This document shows, one piece after another, positions 1 to 56,726 of a stretch of DNA of 56,726 bases. Under the pieces are notes generated by a model. That model did no database searches. It had not been told where the DNA came from and worked only from the letters and a program-made list of their open reading frames with translations. Position numbers and translations under genes: made by a program. Numbering within the stretch: position 1 is the first letter of the stretch; each line of letters opens with the position of its first letter. Origin of the DNA: Leptolyngbya sp. PCC 6406 (lineage in GTDB: Bacteria > Cyanobacteriota > Cyanobacteriia > Phormidesmidales > Phormidesmidaceae); contig NZ_KI913949.1 in NCBI RefSeq assembly GCF_000332095.2, positions 3,797,279 through 3,854,004 of the forward strand, given 5' to 3'.

Positions 1-38
1 CCCCACTCCCCCACTCCCCCACTCCCCCACTCCCCCAC
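1..38. repeat. 8-bp tandem repeat ahead of nifEN
   Basis: The unit CCCCACTC is repeated about 4.7 times and runs right up to the nifEN start codon, leaving only CACC before the ATG. It occupies the place where a ribosome-binding site should be. It belongs to the short tandemly repeated repetitive (STRR) type common in filamentous cyanobacteria. A related C-rich repeat is seen at the right edge of the window. Confidence 0.85.
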
Positions 39-39
39 C

Positions 40-2841
40 ATGTCCTCCACCAAAGCCAACATGACTGACCTCCTGACCCAGCCGGGTTGCGAGCATAACC
101 ACACAAAAAATGGCAAAGGTCACAACAAGGTGTGCCAGCAGCAGGCGCAGCCAGGGGCGGCCCAGGGGGGCTGTGCCTTTGATGGAGCCAGCATTGCCCT
201 GGTGCCGATTACGGATGTGGTCCACCTAGTGCATGGGCCGATCGCCTGTGCGGGCAATTCTTGGGGCGGGCGAGGTAGCCTATCGTCGGGCGACACCCTC
301 TACAAAATGGGCTTCACCACCGACCTGAGCGAAAACGATATTATCTTTGGCGGCGAAAAAAAGCTCTACAAGGCCATTCAAGATGTGCAGGAGCGCTACC
401 ACCCTGCCGCCGTGTTTGTCTATTCCACCTGCGTGACAGCGTTGATTGGCGATGACCTAGAGGCCGTGTGCAAGGCGGCGACGGAAAAGCTGGGCATGGC
501 GGTGGTGCCCATCCAGTCTCCCGGTTTTGTGGGCAGCAAGAATCTGGGCAATCGCCTAGCCGGAGAAGCCCTGCTAGAGCACGTGATCGGCACCGCTGAG
601 CCGGAAAGCACTACCCCCTACGATATCAACCTAATCGGCGAGTACAACATCGCCGGGGAACTGTGGGGGGTACTGCCCCTATTTGAGAAGGTCGGTATTC
701 GGGTGCTGTCTAAGATTACTGGCGATGCCCGCTATCAGGAGGTAGCCTACGCCCATCGGGCCAAGCTCAACGTGATGATCTGCTCGAAGGCACTGATCAA
801 CCTGGCCCACAAAATGGAGGAGCGCTACGGCATTCCTTACATAGAGGAATCGTTTTACGGTGTGGCGGATATGAACCACTGCCTGCGGACGATCGCCGCC
901 AAACTCGGTGACGAGGCCATGCGAGCCCGTGTAGAAGCCGTGATTGCGGAAGAAACCGCCAAGCTCAATGAGCAGCTCGCGCCCTACCGCGATCGCCTCC
1001 AGGGCAAGCGGGTTGTCCTCTACACCGGCGGGGTGAAGTCCTGGTCAATCATCTCCGCTGCTCAAGACCTGGGCATTAAAGTAGTCGCCACCAGCAGCAA
1101 AAAGAGCACCGAAGAAGACAAGGCCCGAATCAAAACCCTACTCGGCCAAGACGGCATCATGCTAGAAAAGGGCGGAGCTGCCGAGCTGCTGAGGGTGATT
1201 GAGAAAACCCACGCCGACATGCTGATCGCCGGAGGCCGCAACCAGTACACCGCTCTCAAGGCCCGCATCCCCTTTTTGCACATCAATCAGGAGCGCCACA
1301 ATCCCTACTCCGGCTACGGTGGTTTGCTGGAGATGGCCAAGGAACTGGATGAAACCCTGCACAGCCCGGTGTGGGCAGAAGTGCGGCGGGAAGTGCCATG
1401 GGTAAAGGGGAGTGATGGAGTTGGGGAGTTGGGGAGTGGTAGTGTTCCCGATCCATCACCCCATCACCCCATCACCCCATCACCCCATCACCCTCCCACC
1501 AAAATCATCGCCCGCCGCAAGGCCCTCACTGTCAATCCGCTCAAGCAAAGCCAGCCCCTTGGGGCTGCCCTAGCTTTCCTCGGCATTCAGGGGGCGATGC
1601 CACTGTTCCACGGCTCCCAGGGCTGTACGGCTTTTGCCAAGGTGATGCTGGTGAATCACTTTCAGGAGGCGATTCCCCTGGCGACCACGGCGATGAGTGA
1701 AGTCAGCACCGTACTGGGGGGCGACGACAATGTGCACGGCGGCCTGCTGACGGTGATTAAGAACTCCCAGCCGGAGCTGGTGGGCCTGTTTACCACCGGC
1801 CTGACGGAAACGCGGGGCGACGATATGCAGGCCATTCTGCGGGACTTCCATGCCGCAAATCCTGATGTTACCGTGCCCATCGTGTTTGCCTCGACCCCCG
1901 ACTACAAGGGCAGTTTGGAGGATGGCTTTGCCGCAGCGGTGGAGAGCCTAGTGCGGGCCATTCCTGAATTCGGAGAGATCAACCCTAAACAAGTCACCCT
2001 GCTGGCCAGTGCCGCCTTTGGCCCTGGGGATGTGGCGGAACTGAAGGAAATCGTCGAAGCCTTTGGTTTGAGTGCGATCGCAGTCCCCGATATTTCCACT
2101 TCGCTGGATGGCCACCTAGAGGATGCCGACTTCGCCACCACGGCTACGGGGGGCACCACCATTGAAGAGCTCAAGGCTGTGGGACGCTCCGCCCTCACGC
2201 TGACCCTGGGCGGCAGCATGACCAAAGCCGCAGCCATCCTCACCGATCGCTTCGGCACTCCCGCCCTTCCCTTCACCCAACTGACGGGATTGGGGGCAGT
2301 GGATCATTTCCTGCATACCCTTTCCCAAATCAGCGGCCAACCTGTACCTGCCAAATACCTGCGCCAGCGCCGCCAGGTACAGGATGCCATGCTAGATACC
2401 CACTTTTTCTTTGGGCGCAAGCGGGTTGCGATCGCACTGGAACCTGACCTGCTGCACAACATCGCCTGGTGGCTGCACAGCACCGGGGCCGAAATCCAGG
2501 CCGCCGTCACCGCTGCTCCCTCGCTCCTGCTGAAGGATTTGCCCATCGAGCAGGTCTACATCGGCGACTTTGAGGATTTAGAAGATAGGGCCGCCACCGC
2601 TGATCTGTGGATCACCAATTCCAAAGCCCGCCCCATCGCCCGCCGCCTCGGCATTCCCCTCTACCTGCACGGGTTCCCCCTGCTAGAGCACCTAGGCAAC
2701 GGCCACCGCTGCACCGTCGGCTATCGCGGCACGTTGGATCTGCTATTTGCGATCGGCAACATGCTGCTGGTCGCCGACGAAGAGCGCACCCACGAGCTGG
2801 TGCATCGGTGGCGGGAGGGGTTAGAAAGTTTTGAATTTTGA
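40..2841 (+). CDS. nifEN: NifE-NifN fusion, FeMo-cofactor scaffold
   Basis: One 933-codon frame contains complete NifE and NifN domains. Together they form the scaffold on which the NifB cluster is matured into FeMo-cofactor before transfer to NifDK. The NifE half is residues 1-455, with the cluster-ligand cysteines at C45 (QGGCAFDG), C70 (GPIACAGNS) and C131 (YSTCVTAL). The NifN half starts near residue 490 with KALTVNPLKQSQPLGAAL and the conserved cysteine C529 (HGSQGCTAF). NifE and NifN are normally separate proteins of about 450 residues each. The joint (about residues 458-490) is low complexity (GVGELGSGS, then PSPHHPITPSPHHPP) and is encoded by tandem CATCACCC-type repeats like those found between genes here. 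The last residues, ESFEF, are also read from a repeat. The ATG at 40 fits the NifE N-terminus, but no Shine-Dalgarno is visible. Fused nifEN genes have, to my recollection, been reported in other diazotrophs, so the repeat origin of the linker is the unusual part. Confidence 0.93.
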   Translation: MSSTKANMTDLLTQPGCEHNHTKNGKGHNKVCQQQAQPGAAQGGCAFDGASIALVPITDVVHLVHGPIACAGNSWGGRGSLSSGDTLYKMGFTTDLSENDIIFGGEKKLYKAIQDVQERYHPAAVFVYSTCVTALIGDDLEAVCKAATEKLGMAVVPIQSPGFVGSKNLGNRLAGEALLEHVIGTAEPESTTPYDINLIGEYNIAGELWGVLPLFEKVGIRVLSKITGDARYQEVAYAHRAKLNVMICSKALINLAHKMEERYGIPYIEESFYGVADMNHCLRTIAAKLGDEAMRARVEAVIAEETAKLNEQLAPYRDRLQGKRVVLYTGGVKSWSIISAAQDLGIKVVATSSKKSTEEDKARIKTLLGQDGIMLEKGGAAELLRVIEKTHADMLIAGGRNQYTALKARIPFLHINQERHNPYSGYGGLLEMAKELDETLHSPVWAEVRREVPWVKGSDGVGELGSGSVPDPSPHHPITPSPHHPPTKIIARRKALTVNPLKQSQPLGAALAFLGIQGAMPLFHGSQGCTAFAKVMLVNHFQEAIPLATTAMSEVSTVLGGDDNVHGGLLTVIKNSQPELVGLFTTGLTETRGDDMQAILRDFHAANPDVTVPIVFASTPDYKGSLEDGFAAAVESLVRAIPEFGEINPKQVTLLASAAFGPGDVAELKEIVEAFGLSAIAVPDISTSLDGHLEDADFATTATGGTTIEELKAVGRSALTLTLGGSMTKAAAILTDRFGTPALPFTQLTGLGAVDHFLHTLSQISGQPVPAKYLRQRRQVQDAMLDTHFFFGRKRVAIALEPDLLHNIAWWLHSTGAEIQAAVTAAPSLLLKDLPIEQVYIGDFEDLEDRAATADLWITNSKARPIARRLGIPLYLHGFPLLEHLGNGHRCTVGYRGTLDLLFAIGNMLLVADEERTHELVHRWREGLESFEF
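1406..1497. repeat. STRR-like repeat forming the NifE-NifN linker
   Basis: The left part is built of GGGGAGT/GGAGTT units and the right part of about five CCCATCAC units. The two parts are loosely complementary, so the block resembles the palindromic intergenic STRR elements seen elsewhere in the window. It is in frame and stop-free through the nifE-nifN junction, and translates to a Gly/Ser-rich then Pro/His-rich linker. Confidence 0.8.
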
Positions 2842-2944: not shown

Positions 2945-3370
2945 ATGAAAATAGCCTTCGCGACCAAAGACTCGATTCACATCAACGCCCACTTCGGCTG
3001 GGCCAGCCAGATCGACGTGTACGACCTGACTTTGGATGGCTACACCTTTCTCGAAACCCTCACCTTTGGCGGTGAGCTAAAGGAAGACGGCAACGAAGAT
3101 AAGCTCGAACCCAAACTCAGGGCACTGGCGGGCTGCACCATCGTCTACGTGGCCGACATTGGCGGCAGTGCAGCGGCCCGACTGATTAATCACCGCATTA
3201 CCCCGATGAAGTCTAACTCCGAAGATGACGAAATCGAAGTGATGTTGGGCCAGTTGATGCGCACCCTCCAGGGCAACCCGCCCCCCTGGCTGCGCAAAGC
3301 CCTGCGTCAAGATCAAGCCCCTAGTTTTGAAGATGCCTACATTGAAACCGAAGAGGAATTAACCGTATGA
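2945..3370 (+). CDS. nifX: NifX, FeMo-cofactor/NifB-co carrier
   Basis: The 141-aa protein belongs to the NifX/NafY/dinitrogenase iron-molybdenum cofactor family, which binds NifB-co or VK-cluster intermediates and exchanges them with NifEN. It begins MKIAFATKD and keeps the family's glycine-rich core (HFGWASQIDVYDL, then IVYVADIGGSAAARL). The ATG at 2945 is preceded by AAAAAAGGAGACTTCCC, a good ribosome-binding site. An upstream in-frame extension would only translate the repeat, so it is rejected. The stop overlaps the next ATG as ATGA, so translation of the two genes is probably coupled. Confidence 0.93.
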   Translation: MKIAFATKDSIHINAHFGWASQIDVYDLTLDGYTFLETLTFGGELKEDGNEDKLEPKLRALAGCTIVYVADIGGSAAARLINHRITPMKSNSEDDEIEVMLGQLMRTLQGNPPPWLRKALRQDQAPSFEDAYIETEEELTV

Positions 3371-30598: not shown

Positions 30599-32395
30599 CT
30601 AGGAACTCTGCTTAAAGGCGTTCAACCATTCCCGCACCTGCTCAGCCGCAATATCTCGACTCCCAAGGCCAAAGGCAATCGCTAGGGCAACTGCGATCGC
30701 ACCCAGCAACAACCCAAAGGCCAGGTTGACGATATCCGTCGCCACCCCCATCTGCTGGAGACCCATCGCCCCCACCAGAATAATGATGGCCACCCGCGCC
30801 GCTTGGGCCAAGAAGTTGGCCTGACTATTGCCCATGCTGCGGATTAGTCGGAAAGCTAGATTCGCAAAGTAGAGCCCCACCGCAAACACCAGCAGCCCGC
30901 TCAGCACCTGCGCTGATACCCGGAGAATAGCCTGCACAACAGCAGTTAAGTTGTCGAATTGCAGAATCTCCGTCGCCGTGATTGCCCCAAACAGGACGAT
31001 ACCCACCAGCGCCACCAGTCCGGCGATCTCAGAGGGGGTTTTCGTCGCCGTTTCAATCCGCACCTCGGGCTGCCCCTCGGCATTGAGAACGGGCTGGACC
31101 TCAGCGGTCGCAGGCACCGTCAGTTCCGGCAGACCAAGGATGCCGAAAATATTGTCAAAGCCAACACTGCGGAGAACACTGGTCAACAACTCCGACACAA
31201 AGCGGCCAATGACGTAAAACACCACCAGCACTAGGCCCGCCATTAGAACCTGGGGCACCGCCGCCAAGATCCGCTCCAGCATCAGCACCGCTGGGCCAGA
31301 AATGGCGTCAATATTCAGCTCATTCAGCGCCGCCACCGCCGAAGGGATCAAAATCAGCACGTACACAACACTACCGACCAGCCCCGACAGGGTCACCCCA
31401 TCCCCCACCTCCGTGGTTGACAGCCCCACCTTGGCCCCGATCCGATCCGTCTGGGTGGCCTTGAGCAGATTGGTGACGATGCCCCGCACAATGCGGGCCA
31501 CCAGCCAACCCACCGCCAAGATAATAGCAGCGGTCAGAATACGGGGAATGGCCTGGAGAAACTGGTTGATCAGCGCCTCCACAGGGGCCAGGAGCCCTGG
31601 TAAATCCAAGGCGCTGAGTACCAATGGCACAAACAGCAAAAAGATAAACCAGTAGAGAATGTTGCCGATGGTCTCATTGACCACAAACGGCCCTGCCACT
31701 GCTCCGGTTTGCTGACCGATAGGCTGTCCAGTCGTCGGTCCGGTCTGATAACCGAGAGGCTGTTCAGTCGTTGGTCCGGTCTGATAACCGATAGGCTGTT
31801 CAGTCGTCGGTCCGGTCTGCTGACCGATGGGCTGTCCAGTCTGCTCCGCTAGACGGTCGTCTAGATTAAAGCGGGCTAAACCCTGAACCACCAGTAGTTT
31901 GACCACCGTGGCCGTGGCCCAAGCGATCGCCAACAGCACTGCCGCCCCACCAATCCGAGGCAGATATTGGAAAATCTGCTGTAAAAAGTCGTTGAGGGGT
32001 TGGGACACCACCTCTAGGTTCAAAGCATTGAGGAAGGCCACCAGGGTGAAGATCAAAATCACCCAATAGACGATGGTGGCAATCCATTGCTCCGTCGGGA
32101 GATTCAGGTTATCCTGCTGTCCCGTAACCCAACTGGCAATGCGATTATCGATGTGGGTGCGCTTCAGCAGGTTTTTAACCCCAAAGGCAACCACTGTGGC
32201 GATGATCCAGCCGCCCAACAGCAGAATGATGGCCCAGATTAAGCTGGGCAAAAAGGTGCCCAGTTGACCACTCAATTCATCCGTGAATCGCCCCATGGGA
32301 GCCATATTCACTTGGGCAAACGACGGCAATATATCAAGGGAGATCGGGATTCTCCCCGCAAGAAGCGGATGTGTAACACTCACCATGATTAGCAA
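30599..32395 (-). CDS. Mechanosensitive-channel family membrane protein
   Basis: About 598 aa with many hydrophobic helices in repeated TM-helix units: IWAIILLLGGWIIATVVAFG, then RILTAAIILAVGWLVARIVR, then VLMAGLVLVVFYVIGRFVS. This is the pattern of TM_helix (CmpX/MscS-like) proteins. The C-terminus ends LAIAFGLGSRDIAAEQVREW. Between two such units is an insertion of about four 12-residue repeats (QTGPTTEQPIGY type), encoded by a 36-bp tandem repeat at about 31703-31845. The start may be one of several Met codons. It probably acts in osmotic or membrane-tension response. Confidence 0.8.
   Translation of the reverse strand: MLIMVSVTHPLLAGRIPISLDILPSFAQVNMAPMGRFTDELSGQLGTFLPSLIWAIILLLGGWIIATVVAFGVKNLLKRTHIDNRIASWVTGQQDNLNLPTEQWIATIVYWVILIFTLVAFLNALNLEVVSQPLNDFLQQIFQYLPRIGGAAVLLAIAWATATVVKLLVVQGLARFNLDDRLAEQTGQPIGQQTGPTTEQPIGYQTGPTTEQPLGYQTGPTTGQPIGQQTGAVAGPFVVNETIGNILYWFIFLLFVPLVLSALDLPGLLAPVEALINQFLQAIPRILTAAIILAVGWLVARIVRGIVTNLLKATQTDRIGAKVGLSTTEVGDGVTLSGLVGSVVYVLILIPSAVAALNELNIDAISGPAVLMLERILAAVPQVLMAGLVLVVFYVIGRFVSELLTSVLRSVGFDNIFGILGLPELTVPATAEVQPVLNAEGQPEVRIETATKTPSEIAGLVALVGIVLFGAITATEILQFDNLTAVVQAILRVSAQVLSGLLVFAVGLYFANLAFRLIRSMGNSQANFLAQAARVAIIILVGAMGLQQMGVATDIVNLAFGLLLGAIAVALAIAFGLGSRDIAAEQVREWLNAFKQSS
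31703..31845. repeat. 36-bp tandem repeat inside the channel gene
   Basis: Four imperfect copies of a 36-bp unit with the core GTCCGGTCTG.TAACCGATAG. It encodes repeats of a Gln/Gly/Pro/Thr-rich 12-mer in a predicted loop and keeps frame because the unit is a multiple of three. Confidence 0.85.
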
Positions 32396-46385: not shown

Positions 46386-46784
46386 AACCCCTACCCGACA
46401 AGAATGTGGGTATGAGCTTACCGCTTTTCCTTAACGCTTTCATCTTTCCATCTTTCACCCCCCACCCTCACACCCCAATCCGGGTCACCCGGCGACAGCA
46501 GGGCGGGTTTTGGCCTCCCATCCCGAATTCCCCAGTAGACACGAGCTAAACCCGCCCCTACGGTGATCACCCAATCAGACCCACCCACCCTGGCAGGGCG
46601 AGCACTCGCCCCTACCGCGCTCCCACACCCCCATACCCCCAATCCCCAATCCGGGTCACCCGGCGACAGCAGGGCGGGTTTTGAGCCTCCCATCCCGGAT
46701 TCCCCAGTAGACACGAGCTAAACCCGCCCCTACGGGATTTACCCCAATACCCCAATACCCCAATACCCCAATACCCCCACCCCA
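46386..46784. repeat. Direct-repeat-rich intergenic region
   Basis: Two ~88-bp direct copies (about 46475-46563 and 46646-46735) start AATCCGGGTCACCCGGCGAC and end AAACCCGCCCCTACGG. Each can fold through GGGCGGGTTT/AAACCCGCCC. CCCCAATA is then repeated about five times (46743-46780). There is no gene. Confidence 0.8.
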
Positions 46785-48023
46785 TCACCCCGCATCCTCT
46801 GTCAGGCCCAACAGCAGGTCACCATAGAAGCGAGTGAGCTGGTTTTCATCTAGGGCTTGGGTGGCGTCATTCCAGGTGGCAACAACGCAGTAGCGGCGGC
46901 CATCCGCCGTCTCTAGGCCGGTAGTCAGGTTCAGAACGCCCGGTTCCGATCCGCCCTTGAAGGCCACGGATTGCCAGTCCTGGGGGCGGGCTAGGCCGGG
47001 ATTTACCTGCATTAGGGGTAAATCCTGCACTGTGGCCATCAACTCGCACAGCTCACGGGCGGAGAAGAACCATTCCACATCCAGGGCCAGGGGCGTATCG
47101 CCAAAGATAGTGACGGGGGGCAGGGGGACGGCGGTCAGGGTGGAGAGTAGCGATCTCCGTTCAGCCTCATTGCCCTCACGAAACTGGGCTAGATAGTCGG
47201 CGTTGGCCGGATTTTTCAGCACAAAAAAGTCGCGGGTCGTAAGGAACGGCTGATTGCGGGGGCTCCAGGTCTCCACCGCTTCTCGACCCAGGAGGTGAAT
47301 CAGGGCATCCGTCGCCGTATTATCGCTGAGGGAAATCATCAGGGTGGCGAGGGTTTCCAAGGTTAGGGCCGTGCCGGGGGGCCAATCCTGTAGGAGGCCA
47401 CTGGGAAGGCTCCGCCATGCCGCCTCTAGTACCACCACATCGGTCCACTGGTGGCTACCAGTGGTGATTGCATCCTGAAGAGCCGCCAGCACCGCCAGCT
47501 TAAAGGCCGATCCTACCGCCAGCGGTTGATCGGCATTCACCGCCGCCAGCACTCGATCCCCCTCCAGTACCAGTAGGCTGGCCTCTCTGGGAAAGGCTTG
47601 GATCAAGGCAGTGGCCTCCGCCAGCGACAGAGGCGCTTCGGGTCTGCCAATCAGCAGTTGGGCAATGCGACCCTGGTCATCTAGAGCAATCTGAGCCGGA
47701 ACGGTCCCCCGCTCAAACATCACTGCGTAGCCCCCATCCCGTGCTTGAATCCCTTGGAATGCCCCCAGGGATTGCTTCAGATCCGTCAGCAATGGTTGAA
47801 TCTGCTGAAAGGGCACCTGTTCTAGGAAGGACTGGGCGAACCAGTCCGCCTCCACGGCTTCGGCCTGAAAAATTCGCTCCAAAGCTTGTTCAGCCGTCAG
47901 GGGTTGAGCTTGGGTCATAATCCAGGGCGATGTGGAAACCGTGGTAGCCCTCAAGGGCAGATCTGGGACCATCCCAATGAGTAGTCCCTCCGCCAGCACC
48001 AGCGCCAAAGTTGCAGAAATCAT
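46785..48023 (-). CDS. Class-A-beta-lactamase-like serine hydrolase
   Basis: The 412-aa protein has an N-terminal signal-like segment (MISATLALVLAEGLLIGMVP). A DUF3887-like region with EQVPFQQIQPLLTDLK precedes the penicillin-binding fold: GSAFKLAVL (SxxK), LMISLSDNTATD (SDN) and VAFKGGSEPG (KxG). It is a cyanobacterial relative of class A enzymes; an actual lactamase role is not implied. The native role may be in peptidoglycan metabolism. Confidence 0.82.
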   Translation of the reverse strand: MISATLALVLAEGLLIGMVPDLPLRATTVSTSPWIMTQAQPLTAEQALERIFQAEAVEADWFAQSFLEQVPFQQIQPLLTDLKQSLGAFQGIQARDGGYAVMFERGTVPAQIALDDQGRIAQLLIGRPEAPLSLAEATALIQAFPREASLLVLEGDRVLAAVNADQPLAVGSAFKLAVLAALQDAITTGSHQWTDVVVLEAAWRSLPSGLLQDWPPGTALTLETLATLMISLSDNTATDALIHLLGREAVETWSPRNQPFLTTRDFFVLKNPANADYLAQFREGNEAERRSLLSTLTAVPLPPVTIFGDTPLALDVEWFFSARELCELMATVQDLPLMQVNPGLARPQDWQSVAFKGGSEPGVLNLTTGLETADGRRYCVVATWNDATQALDENQLTRFYGDLLLGLTEDAG

Positions 48024-55592: not shown

Positions 55593-56726
55593 TTATCCCA
55601 GCATCCGTAGGGCCGCAGCACTGTGAATCTGCACCGCCTCTTGGGGATCCGCGAGCAGGGTTTGAAGTAGGGGAATGGCGGATTGGGCCTGGAGCCGACC
55701 GAGGGCTAGGGCAATGGCTTGTTTTTGGGCAGCGGCGGTGGGCTGGTCAATGAGCGCCGTGAGCCAGGTTTGCAGCACCGTCTGGGTTTGTTGGCCCAGA
55801 GGACCGTCGCCAAGATGGCCCAGAGCAGAAATGATTTCGAGCTGCACAGGGGAGGCGACTTTTTCCCAAGCCGCTGTCAAGGCCGTTAAGGCGGATTCTG
55901 AAGTCAGCCAGCCCAGGGATCGCACAATGCTAATTTGCAGTGGCTCCGGGGTCTGGGGAGAGGAAAGGGCTCGGGCGAGAGTTTCGATGATCAGGGACTG
56001 GCCCAAAGGGGCCATCGCGGTTTCGGTCCCGAAGCGCCCCAGGGCCACAACGGCGGCTTGGCGAACAGAAAGAGCCCGATCCCAGAGCGCGGGTTGGACA
56101 TGGGCAACGAGATCCACCTGTCCCAGCAAGTCTGTGCGAAGTCCCAGGGCCGTCACCGCCTCCCGCCGGACAGAATCCACCCTATCCCCTAGGGCCGCTA
56201 GCAGTACGGGCAAAATCCGCTCATCCCGAAACTGGGCCAAGGCTTCTATAACCATAGTTCGCACTTCTGCATCCGGATCCTGGGCTACCCACAACAACGG
56301 CTCCACCGTAGCCGGGTGACCCATCCGCGCCAGAATCTGCACCGCCAGAGATCGCTGATCTGCGATGGTCCGGGACCGGCCCAAAGGGGCCATCGCGAGG
56401 AGAGGTTCCAGCGCCGCGACTCCCGCCGCCCCACAGTTCCCCAGCGCCGCTGCCGCCGCCGCCGTCAGTTCCGGTTCGTGGCTATGTAACAGCACCTCCA
56501 GAAGTCCCTGCACCACACCCGGACCACTGATTTGACCCAAAATCTGAGCCACAAACCACTGTAGTTCCCAATCTGAGGTGTCATCTTGCAAGCGCTCCAG
56601 CAATGACGGTAGCGCCACCTCCCCCAGTTGAGACAAATCCTTTGCGACCTCCCAGCGCCGTTGAAAATCCCCCGTTTCTAATTCCTCTAGGAGGGTATTG
56701 AGGGTGGGGTGGGGGGTGGGGTGGGG
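55593..56726 (-). CDS. HEAT-repeat protein, partial
   Basis: The C-terminal ~377 residues of a PBS-lyase-type HEAT-repeat protein (DPDAEVRTMVIEALAQFRDE, VDSVRREAVTALG, ALSVRQAAVVALGRFG), running off the right edge. The frame stays open from 56636 to the edge as LNTLLEELETGDFQRRWEVA and so on, preceded by HPTPHPT from a CCCCACC repeat. The real start is therefore upstream or within that repeat. Related proteins act as scaffolds or as phycobilin lyase subunits; nothing here decides which. Confidence 0.8.
   Translation of the reverse strand, partial: PHPTPHPTLNTLLEELETGDFQRRWEVAKDLSQLGEVALPSLLERLQDDTSDWELQWFVAQILGQISGPGVVQGLLEVLLHSHEPELTAAAAAALGNCGAAGVAALEPLLAMAPLGRSRTIADQRSLAVQILARMGHPATVEPLLWVAQDPDAEVRTMVIEALAQFRDERILPVLLAALGDRVDSVRREAVTALGLRTDLLGQVDLVAHVQPALWDRALSVRQAAVVALGRFGTETAMAPLGQSLIIETLARALSSPQTPEPLQISIVRSLGWLTSESALTALTAAWEKVASPVQLEIISALGHLGDGPLGQQTQTVLQTWLTALIDQPTAAAQKQAIALALGRLQAQSAIPLLQTLLADPQEAVQIHSAAALRMLG

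Follow-up and report, generated by a model that had tools for sequence, protein, structure and literature searches.

The DNA studied here, referred to as the window, is a stretch of 56,726 bp from Leptolyngbya sp. PCC 6406 in which nifE runs into nifN in one open frame, and the DNA that joins the two halves is built of short repeats. The question that this locus raises is whether the repeat made the fusion or whether it settled in a gene that was already fused.

The nifEN gene and known NifEN fusions

The single open frame extends over positions 40-2841 of the window (forward strand, as do all window features given below) and comprises 933 codons, from the ATG at position 40 to the TGA at 2839-2841, with NifE first and NifN second. 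The NifE part (40-1401) ends with REVPW and is followed by a variable linker of 32 codons (1402-1497; 96 bases), which is spacer-like DNA that is translated. The frame re-enters conserved sequence at a segment of 30 bases encoding TKIIARRKAL (1498-1527), which corresponds to the N-terminus of the separate NifN in split relatives, and the NifN part (1528-2838) then begins with TVNPLKQSQ. Against NF011047, the NifEN fusion model of NCBIfam, the protein scored 1364.5 bits (cut-off 1229 bits) over residues 8-918, and it was also above the NCBIfam cut-offs of the nifE and of the nifN models. The uninterrupted NifE-NifN frame claimed in the original prediction is thus confirmed, and the linker peptide of this single-chain frame is Gly/Ser- and then Pro/His-rich as had been described. 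Five cysteines, which we take to be cluster ligands, are kept in the fused protein (C45, C70, C131 and C248 of NifE, C529 of NifN). The predicted product is one NifEN polypeptide, which by analogy with the known family would serve as the FeMo-cofactor scaffold.

Downstream of nifEN, a spacer with the opposed heptamer arms AGTTTTG and CAAAACT (2842-2944) precedes nifX (2945-3370) and the gene of a NifX-associated protein (TIGR02935; 3367-3846), both identified by profile match. Upstream in the genome are nifB, nifS, nifU, nifH, nifD and nifK, as named from their translations. A NifD-NifK fusion was also considered (both were listed in one 1084 open frame) and was rejected because stops separate nifD from nifK. 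A tandem repeat of another kind, with a 36-bp unit in 3.9 copies (88% match), is present at 31703-31841.

NifEN fusions were described in the nif2 cluster of A. variabilis and in Chroococcidiopsis (C. thermalis) (PMC4284476); PMC8071049 names seven further genomes with the fusion, and PMC8399215 reports it for 29 assemblies, which are from Cyanobacteria and Nitrospira. Like the window, the cyanobacterial cases (A. variabilis nif2, Chroococcidiopsis, Thermoleptolyngbya, Trichodesmium) have one NifE-NifN gene. Linker DNA and repeats are not discussed in the accessible portions of these three papers, and a literature search at the level of titles and abstracts, with subscription journals mostly absent, returned no report of repeats in a NifEN linker. 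A fused NifEN has also been solved as a single chain of 919 aa (PDB 9i0g/9i0h), and its alignment with the window protein covers residues 24-910 of the latter; in this alignment its linker is without repeats of the window type. The fusion itself is therefore ordinary and known, being represented in both NCBIfam and the PDB, and the novelty is the turnover of the linker.

Repeats in the linker and in the genome

The linker has a G-rich left arm of GGGGAGT/TGGGGAGT units (1407-1444), followed by an array of the octamer CATCACCC (1453-1493; 41 bp), which Tandem Repeats Finder detected as CCATCACC in 5.1 copies with 100% match. The tandem score of the linker was 33, above all 490 coding windows of nifEN (highest score 9). 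Genome-wide, a doublet of CATCACCC was matched 156 times and the reversed control not once; among the first 100 matches listed, the doublets lay at 45 separate places at least, the linker itself counted in. By eye, the fetched contexts of these copies (L137-L166) were spacer-like, and several were directly 5' of a gene start. The tandem GGGGAGTT unit matched the genome solely in its own linker and hence forms no dispersed family.

Cyanobacterial short tandem repeats of this type are called STRR. Three properties of short tandem repeats were considered, namely tandem units of 7-8 bp, dispersal in many copies and a mostly intergenic position. The linker has an 8-bp unit in 5.1 copies, and dispersal was found for CATCACCC (156 matches versus 0), but not for GGGGAGTT (one match). 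For the third property, arrays of period 7 or 8 were surveyed in ten loci of the window's clade (see below), the window and its upstream stretch (L008), and 69 of the 84 arrays were outside ORF interiors. The original prediction took the repeats for a kind that also lies between other genes of the window. Their kind is indeed that of the spacers of this genome; within the window, related arrays are sparse, with one at 46740-46791 (TACCCCAA, then CACCCCATCACCCC) and one of the octamer CCCCACTC at 1-38, directly 5' of nifEN and adjoining an assembly gap of 100 N. Both ends of the window (1-38 and 56702-56726) adjoin 100-N gaps beside C-rich or G-rich arrays. Some other arrays of this genome likewise adjoin assembly gaps, which bears on the unit count of the 41-bp tract.

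Linker turnover among close relatives

Source searches for loci gave a match in 32 of 77 relatives and in 125 of 388 genomes of the class. We compared 83 loci, which were chosen and not drawn at random (one per genome for 81 genomes, plus the named loci L042 and L046); 48 of these chosen loci were fused and 35 were split. Together with the published cases, this bears out the expectation that fused nifEN genes exist elsewhere. A quick tree of NifE and NifN without the linker was calculated with 81 rows; it has SH-aLRT support only and its root is not known. L042, in which NifN is cut short, and L084 were left out of it, and L045 contributed no linker, as its match lies at the end of a contig and starts only within the NifN region. 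The nifEN of L084 (G044, a draft genome) is interrupted by a stop in the linker and shifts frame twice, once in the linker and once inside NifN; these defects reflect either a broken gene or sequence errors.

In this tree, the window is placed in a clade of 11 genomes that are all fused (SH-aLRT 99). Close relatives with a name are records of Nodosilinea, Phormidium and Leptolyngbyaceae. Within the clade, NifE is on average 93.7% identical (91.6-97.8) and NifN 89.2% (86.4-94.0). Of the 55 pairs of linkers, 21 aligned better than 50 shuffles and 34 did not. Significant tandem arrays of 7 or 8 bp were found in the linkers of eight of the 11 genomes and a palindrome in the other three, and the repeats are mostly of kinds that are dispersed in these genomes. 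About six linker types can be told apart, which is not to be read as 11 independent events: GGGGAGT/CATCACCC in the window; GTGAAGG with CTCTTTAC and CATCCACC (L061, L063); GGTTTAC or CCCAAAA arms around a common core (L053, L062); GAAGGCA with CATCCACC-like units (L065, L052); CATCCACC alone (L066); and a CCTCACCCCCAACCCC palindrome (L064, L067, L068). Taken as the stretch between the end of NifE and the conserved start of NifN, the tether has 24-71 residues in the 48 fused loci. The comparison of linker length and repeat content in relatives that had been proposed with the original prediction thus yielded variation in both.

Palindromic elements that are inserted in frame in genes are known from Rickettsia. 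They are likewise dispersed repeat DNA, in frame and at tolerant places of protein genes. However, the Rickettsia elements are palindromes of one genus, whereas the linkers of the clade are for the larger part tandem arrays.

One palindrome linker (L068:9843-9908) belongs to a genome of another family (G069, family f24), whose NifEN is 89% identical to that of the window and groups within the window's clade. In the G069 genome the palindrome has a single copy, the one in the linker. The foreign family, the placement in the clade and the single copy suggest that the nif cluster of G069 was horizontally transferred together with its linker.

Origin of the fusion

Over the 81 rows of the tree, the fused state requires at least five changes, four of which are forced by well supported branches. 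The window's clade adjoins six more fused rows and Geitlerinema, which is likewise fused and has a long branch, and in five of the six fused neighbours the linker is without a significant tandem array. Clade and fused neighbours have the fusion in common but not the linker. Therefore, the repeat most likely post-dates the fusion in this lineage, as judged from these sequence comparisons. Among the split loci, 13 of 35 have a TAATG in which the stop of nifE overlaps the start of nifN (counted by eye, in chosen loci), and a GGAGG-type site was seen by eye within the nifE end at these 13 loci. Since stop and start overlap in this way, one small indel could fuse nifE and nifN without any repeat.

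The original prediction had pictured the reverse order, in which the fusion at this locus arose when an intergenic repeat expanded and erased the stop of nifE together with the start of nifN. In its favor, the layout of the linker is that of a spacer, and tandem-rich spacers were found in 11 of the 19 split loci (of 35) that were long enough to test. Repeat spacers could also be prone to fusion, as an open and in-phase frame already runs through 7 of the 71 whole spacers of the clade. However, the relatives that are fused alike, the 11 genomes of the clade and their six neighbours, carry unrelated linkers, mostly without a significant array in the neighbours, and the TAATG overlap of the 13 split loci leaves no spacer that could expand. 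Fused relatives with an unrelated linker, the observation named beforehand as speaking against this mechanism, were encountered many times. We therefore regard a fusion made by the repeat as improbable and favor a repeat that entered a gene already fused.

Spacer-like character of the linkers

Compared with coding windows of the same gene, 17 of the 48 fused linkers had more tandem structure at p<0.01, and 28 of the 48 did not pass this test even at p<0.05. With periods of 5-24, tandem structure was found in 18 of the 48 linkers, the best period being 7 (seven linkers), 8 (five), 14 (three), 15 (two) or 12 (one); in 15 of these 18 it is no multiple of three, and in three it is. G-rich sequence precedes C-rich sequence in 16 of the 17 tandem-rich linkers and in 34 of all 48, and the same order was observed in 32 of the 40 tandem-rich spacers of the clade. 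The opposite order, from C-rich to G-rich, was seen in the four palindrome linkers (L027, L064, L067, L068).

Five linker units were counted in 14 whole genomes, overlapping units included and draft assemblies among them; the counts are confined to these five and do not extend to further linker units, such as those in G292, G331, G024, G019 and G010. Four of the five units were commonest in a genome that bears the unit in its linker, with peak counts of 156 for CATCACCC (G000), 280 for GAAGGCA (G354), 36 for CCCAAAA (G030) and 97 for GTGAAGG (G313). Second carriers had lower counts (G369, 30 for GAAGGCA; G342, 12 for GTGAAGG). The palindrome was counted 12 times each in G045 and G019, five times in G326 and only as the linker copy in G069; among the 14 genomes, it showed no peak in a genome with exactly that copy in its linker. 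The reversed control was not clean for GAAGGCA (15 in G326, 1 in G369) and is not independent for CCCAAAA. Sharing of 12-mers with the flanking DNA (~20 kb at most, in many cases less) was significantly above that of coding windows in just 6 of the 48 linkers, and for the window linker it was not significant even with 74 kb (p=0.24).

In Nostoc, G-rich heptamers GGGGA(C/T)T are present in many copies, 68% of them intergenic and some thus intragenic, and such repeats of Nostoc and Xanthomonas are placed at most 50 bp past a stop codon (sense strand) or ahead of a start codon (antisense strand) and form quadruplexes in vitro (PMC4692102). The linker repeats resemble the Nostoc heptamers as G-rich multicopy repeats of 7 bp, and the G-rich/C-rich placement in the linkers matches. 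Unlike what is described there, the linker arrays are read in frame within a conserved enzyme, in the linker between its domains, and they vary from one close species to the next.

The likeness to quadruplex-forming repeats in placement is compatible with a role of the linker DNA or RNA of its own, for example through a hairpin or G-quadruplex formed by the nif mRNA, and strong folding was predicted for L053 (z -5.0), L061 (-4.9) and L063 (-3.5), with a weaker value for the window (-2.3). However, only 11 of the 48 linkers had z<-2, and as a set they did not differ from coding windows in hairpin potential (Wilcoxon p=0.10). No excess folding was seen in L066, L065 and L052, and the window has three GGGG tracts and lacks a fourth. 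A nucleic-acid role is thus quite improbable, and the linker behaves, as far as its sequence can tell, as would an intergenic spacer through which translation happens to run.

Of the 15 arrays of the clade survey that are inside ORFs, ten are NifEN linkers (in eight genomes). One of the remaining five is the interdomain linker of NifU in L063 (L063:16835-16891, complement). We judged the other four to be spacers that are read as open: one 5' of NifU in L061, one 5' of an Fe-S assembly protein in L067, and two in L062, where the judgement is from Pfam alone; one of this pair adjoins a Fer2 domain and the other lies in an ORF to which no family was assigned. A survey of NifU linkers revealed in-frame CATCCACC material in L063 and L067 and in-frame GGGGAGCA in L079, which is outside the 11-genome clade; in many relatives the NifU interdomain linkers are short and plain. 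As comparable repeats also occur in the NifU linker of a few relatives, the pattern appears to reflect a general process at the DNA level that affects tolerant linkers and is not specific to NifEN.

Retention of the reading frame

Linkers of the clade were open and in phase in 11 of 12 readable loci, whereas random spacer windows of equal lengths were open in 25-65% of draws, and only the 7 of 71 whole spacers noted above were both open and in phase. No joint probability is given, because the linkers are related. The exception, L042, stems from a low-coverage MAG (SM2_5_2); it has an in-frame TGA in the repeat linker and a GTG codon in the NifN frame three bases on, possibly a re-splitting or an error. 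In L063, arrays of 7- or 8-bp GTGAAGG elsewhere in the locus put a TGA in every frame, and its linker has a corresponding 15-bp in-frame combination that does not.

In the window, the CATCACCC array (1453-1493) has no stops in any of the three forward frames. Loss of one octamer would end the protein at 550 residues and gain of one at 513, removing NifN in both cases, and a change by three octamers keeps the frame and the whole protein. As 8 is no multiple of 3, the array could act as a frame switch, in which slippage by 8 bp turns NifN off and on (phase variation), with a TTG in the linker (1429) and an ATG inside the domain (1597) as start-like in-frame codons close to NifN. Yet the other ten genomes of the clade have different linkers, that of L063 with its frame-safe 15-bp unit, and five repeat units are short for slippage, so that we consider such a switch highly improbable. 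Least credible of all is an assembly artefact, in which a collapsed repeat conceals a stop or frameshift, as 100-N gaps beside arrays at both window ends and elsewhere might suggest, since the tract is a mere 41 bp, assemblies of other species are fused and open as well, several of them in few contigs (for example G051 and G069 in one, G032 in two), and NCBIfam has a model for the NifEN fusion.

Conclusions

In this study, we observed the nifE-nifN fusion, unlike linkers between close species, repeats and a layout of the spacer type in these linkers, and a second such site in NifU. The reading that we consider likely is that the window inherited a fusion of the known cyanobacterial type, and that a process which fills spacers with repeats also fills and rewrites the tolerant tether between the halves, so that the repeat displaced an earlier linker as a mere passenger and did not cause the fusion. 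The fusion event itself may have been a small indel at a TAATG overlap. The tether would tolerate very different sequences, and therefore the DNA process that fills spacers with 7/8-bp tandem and palindromic repeats could act on it too, with slippage or template switching as the presumable copying step. Selection would then retain those linker versions that are stop-free and in phase, and the linker peptide itself may be neutral.

More tentatively, and with somewhat less than even confidence, it is tempting to speculate that the short tandem repeats proper to each of these genomes actively rewrite both spacers and the translated tethers of multi-domain proteins (NifEN and NifU), that linkers evolve at the speed of spacers under a frame filter, and that the repeats travel with nif clusters between lineages. 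The length of 24-71 residues and the many unrelated sequences among the 48 fused loci suggest that the sequence of the tether is probably of little importance. If true, this indifference would be useful for engineering single-chain NifEN. What was suspected to be a gene-fusion event thus becomes a natural experiment, and the linker may serve as a marked site at which the turnover of spacer repeats can be followed within a coding frame.
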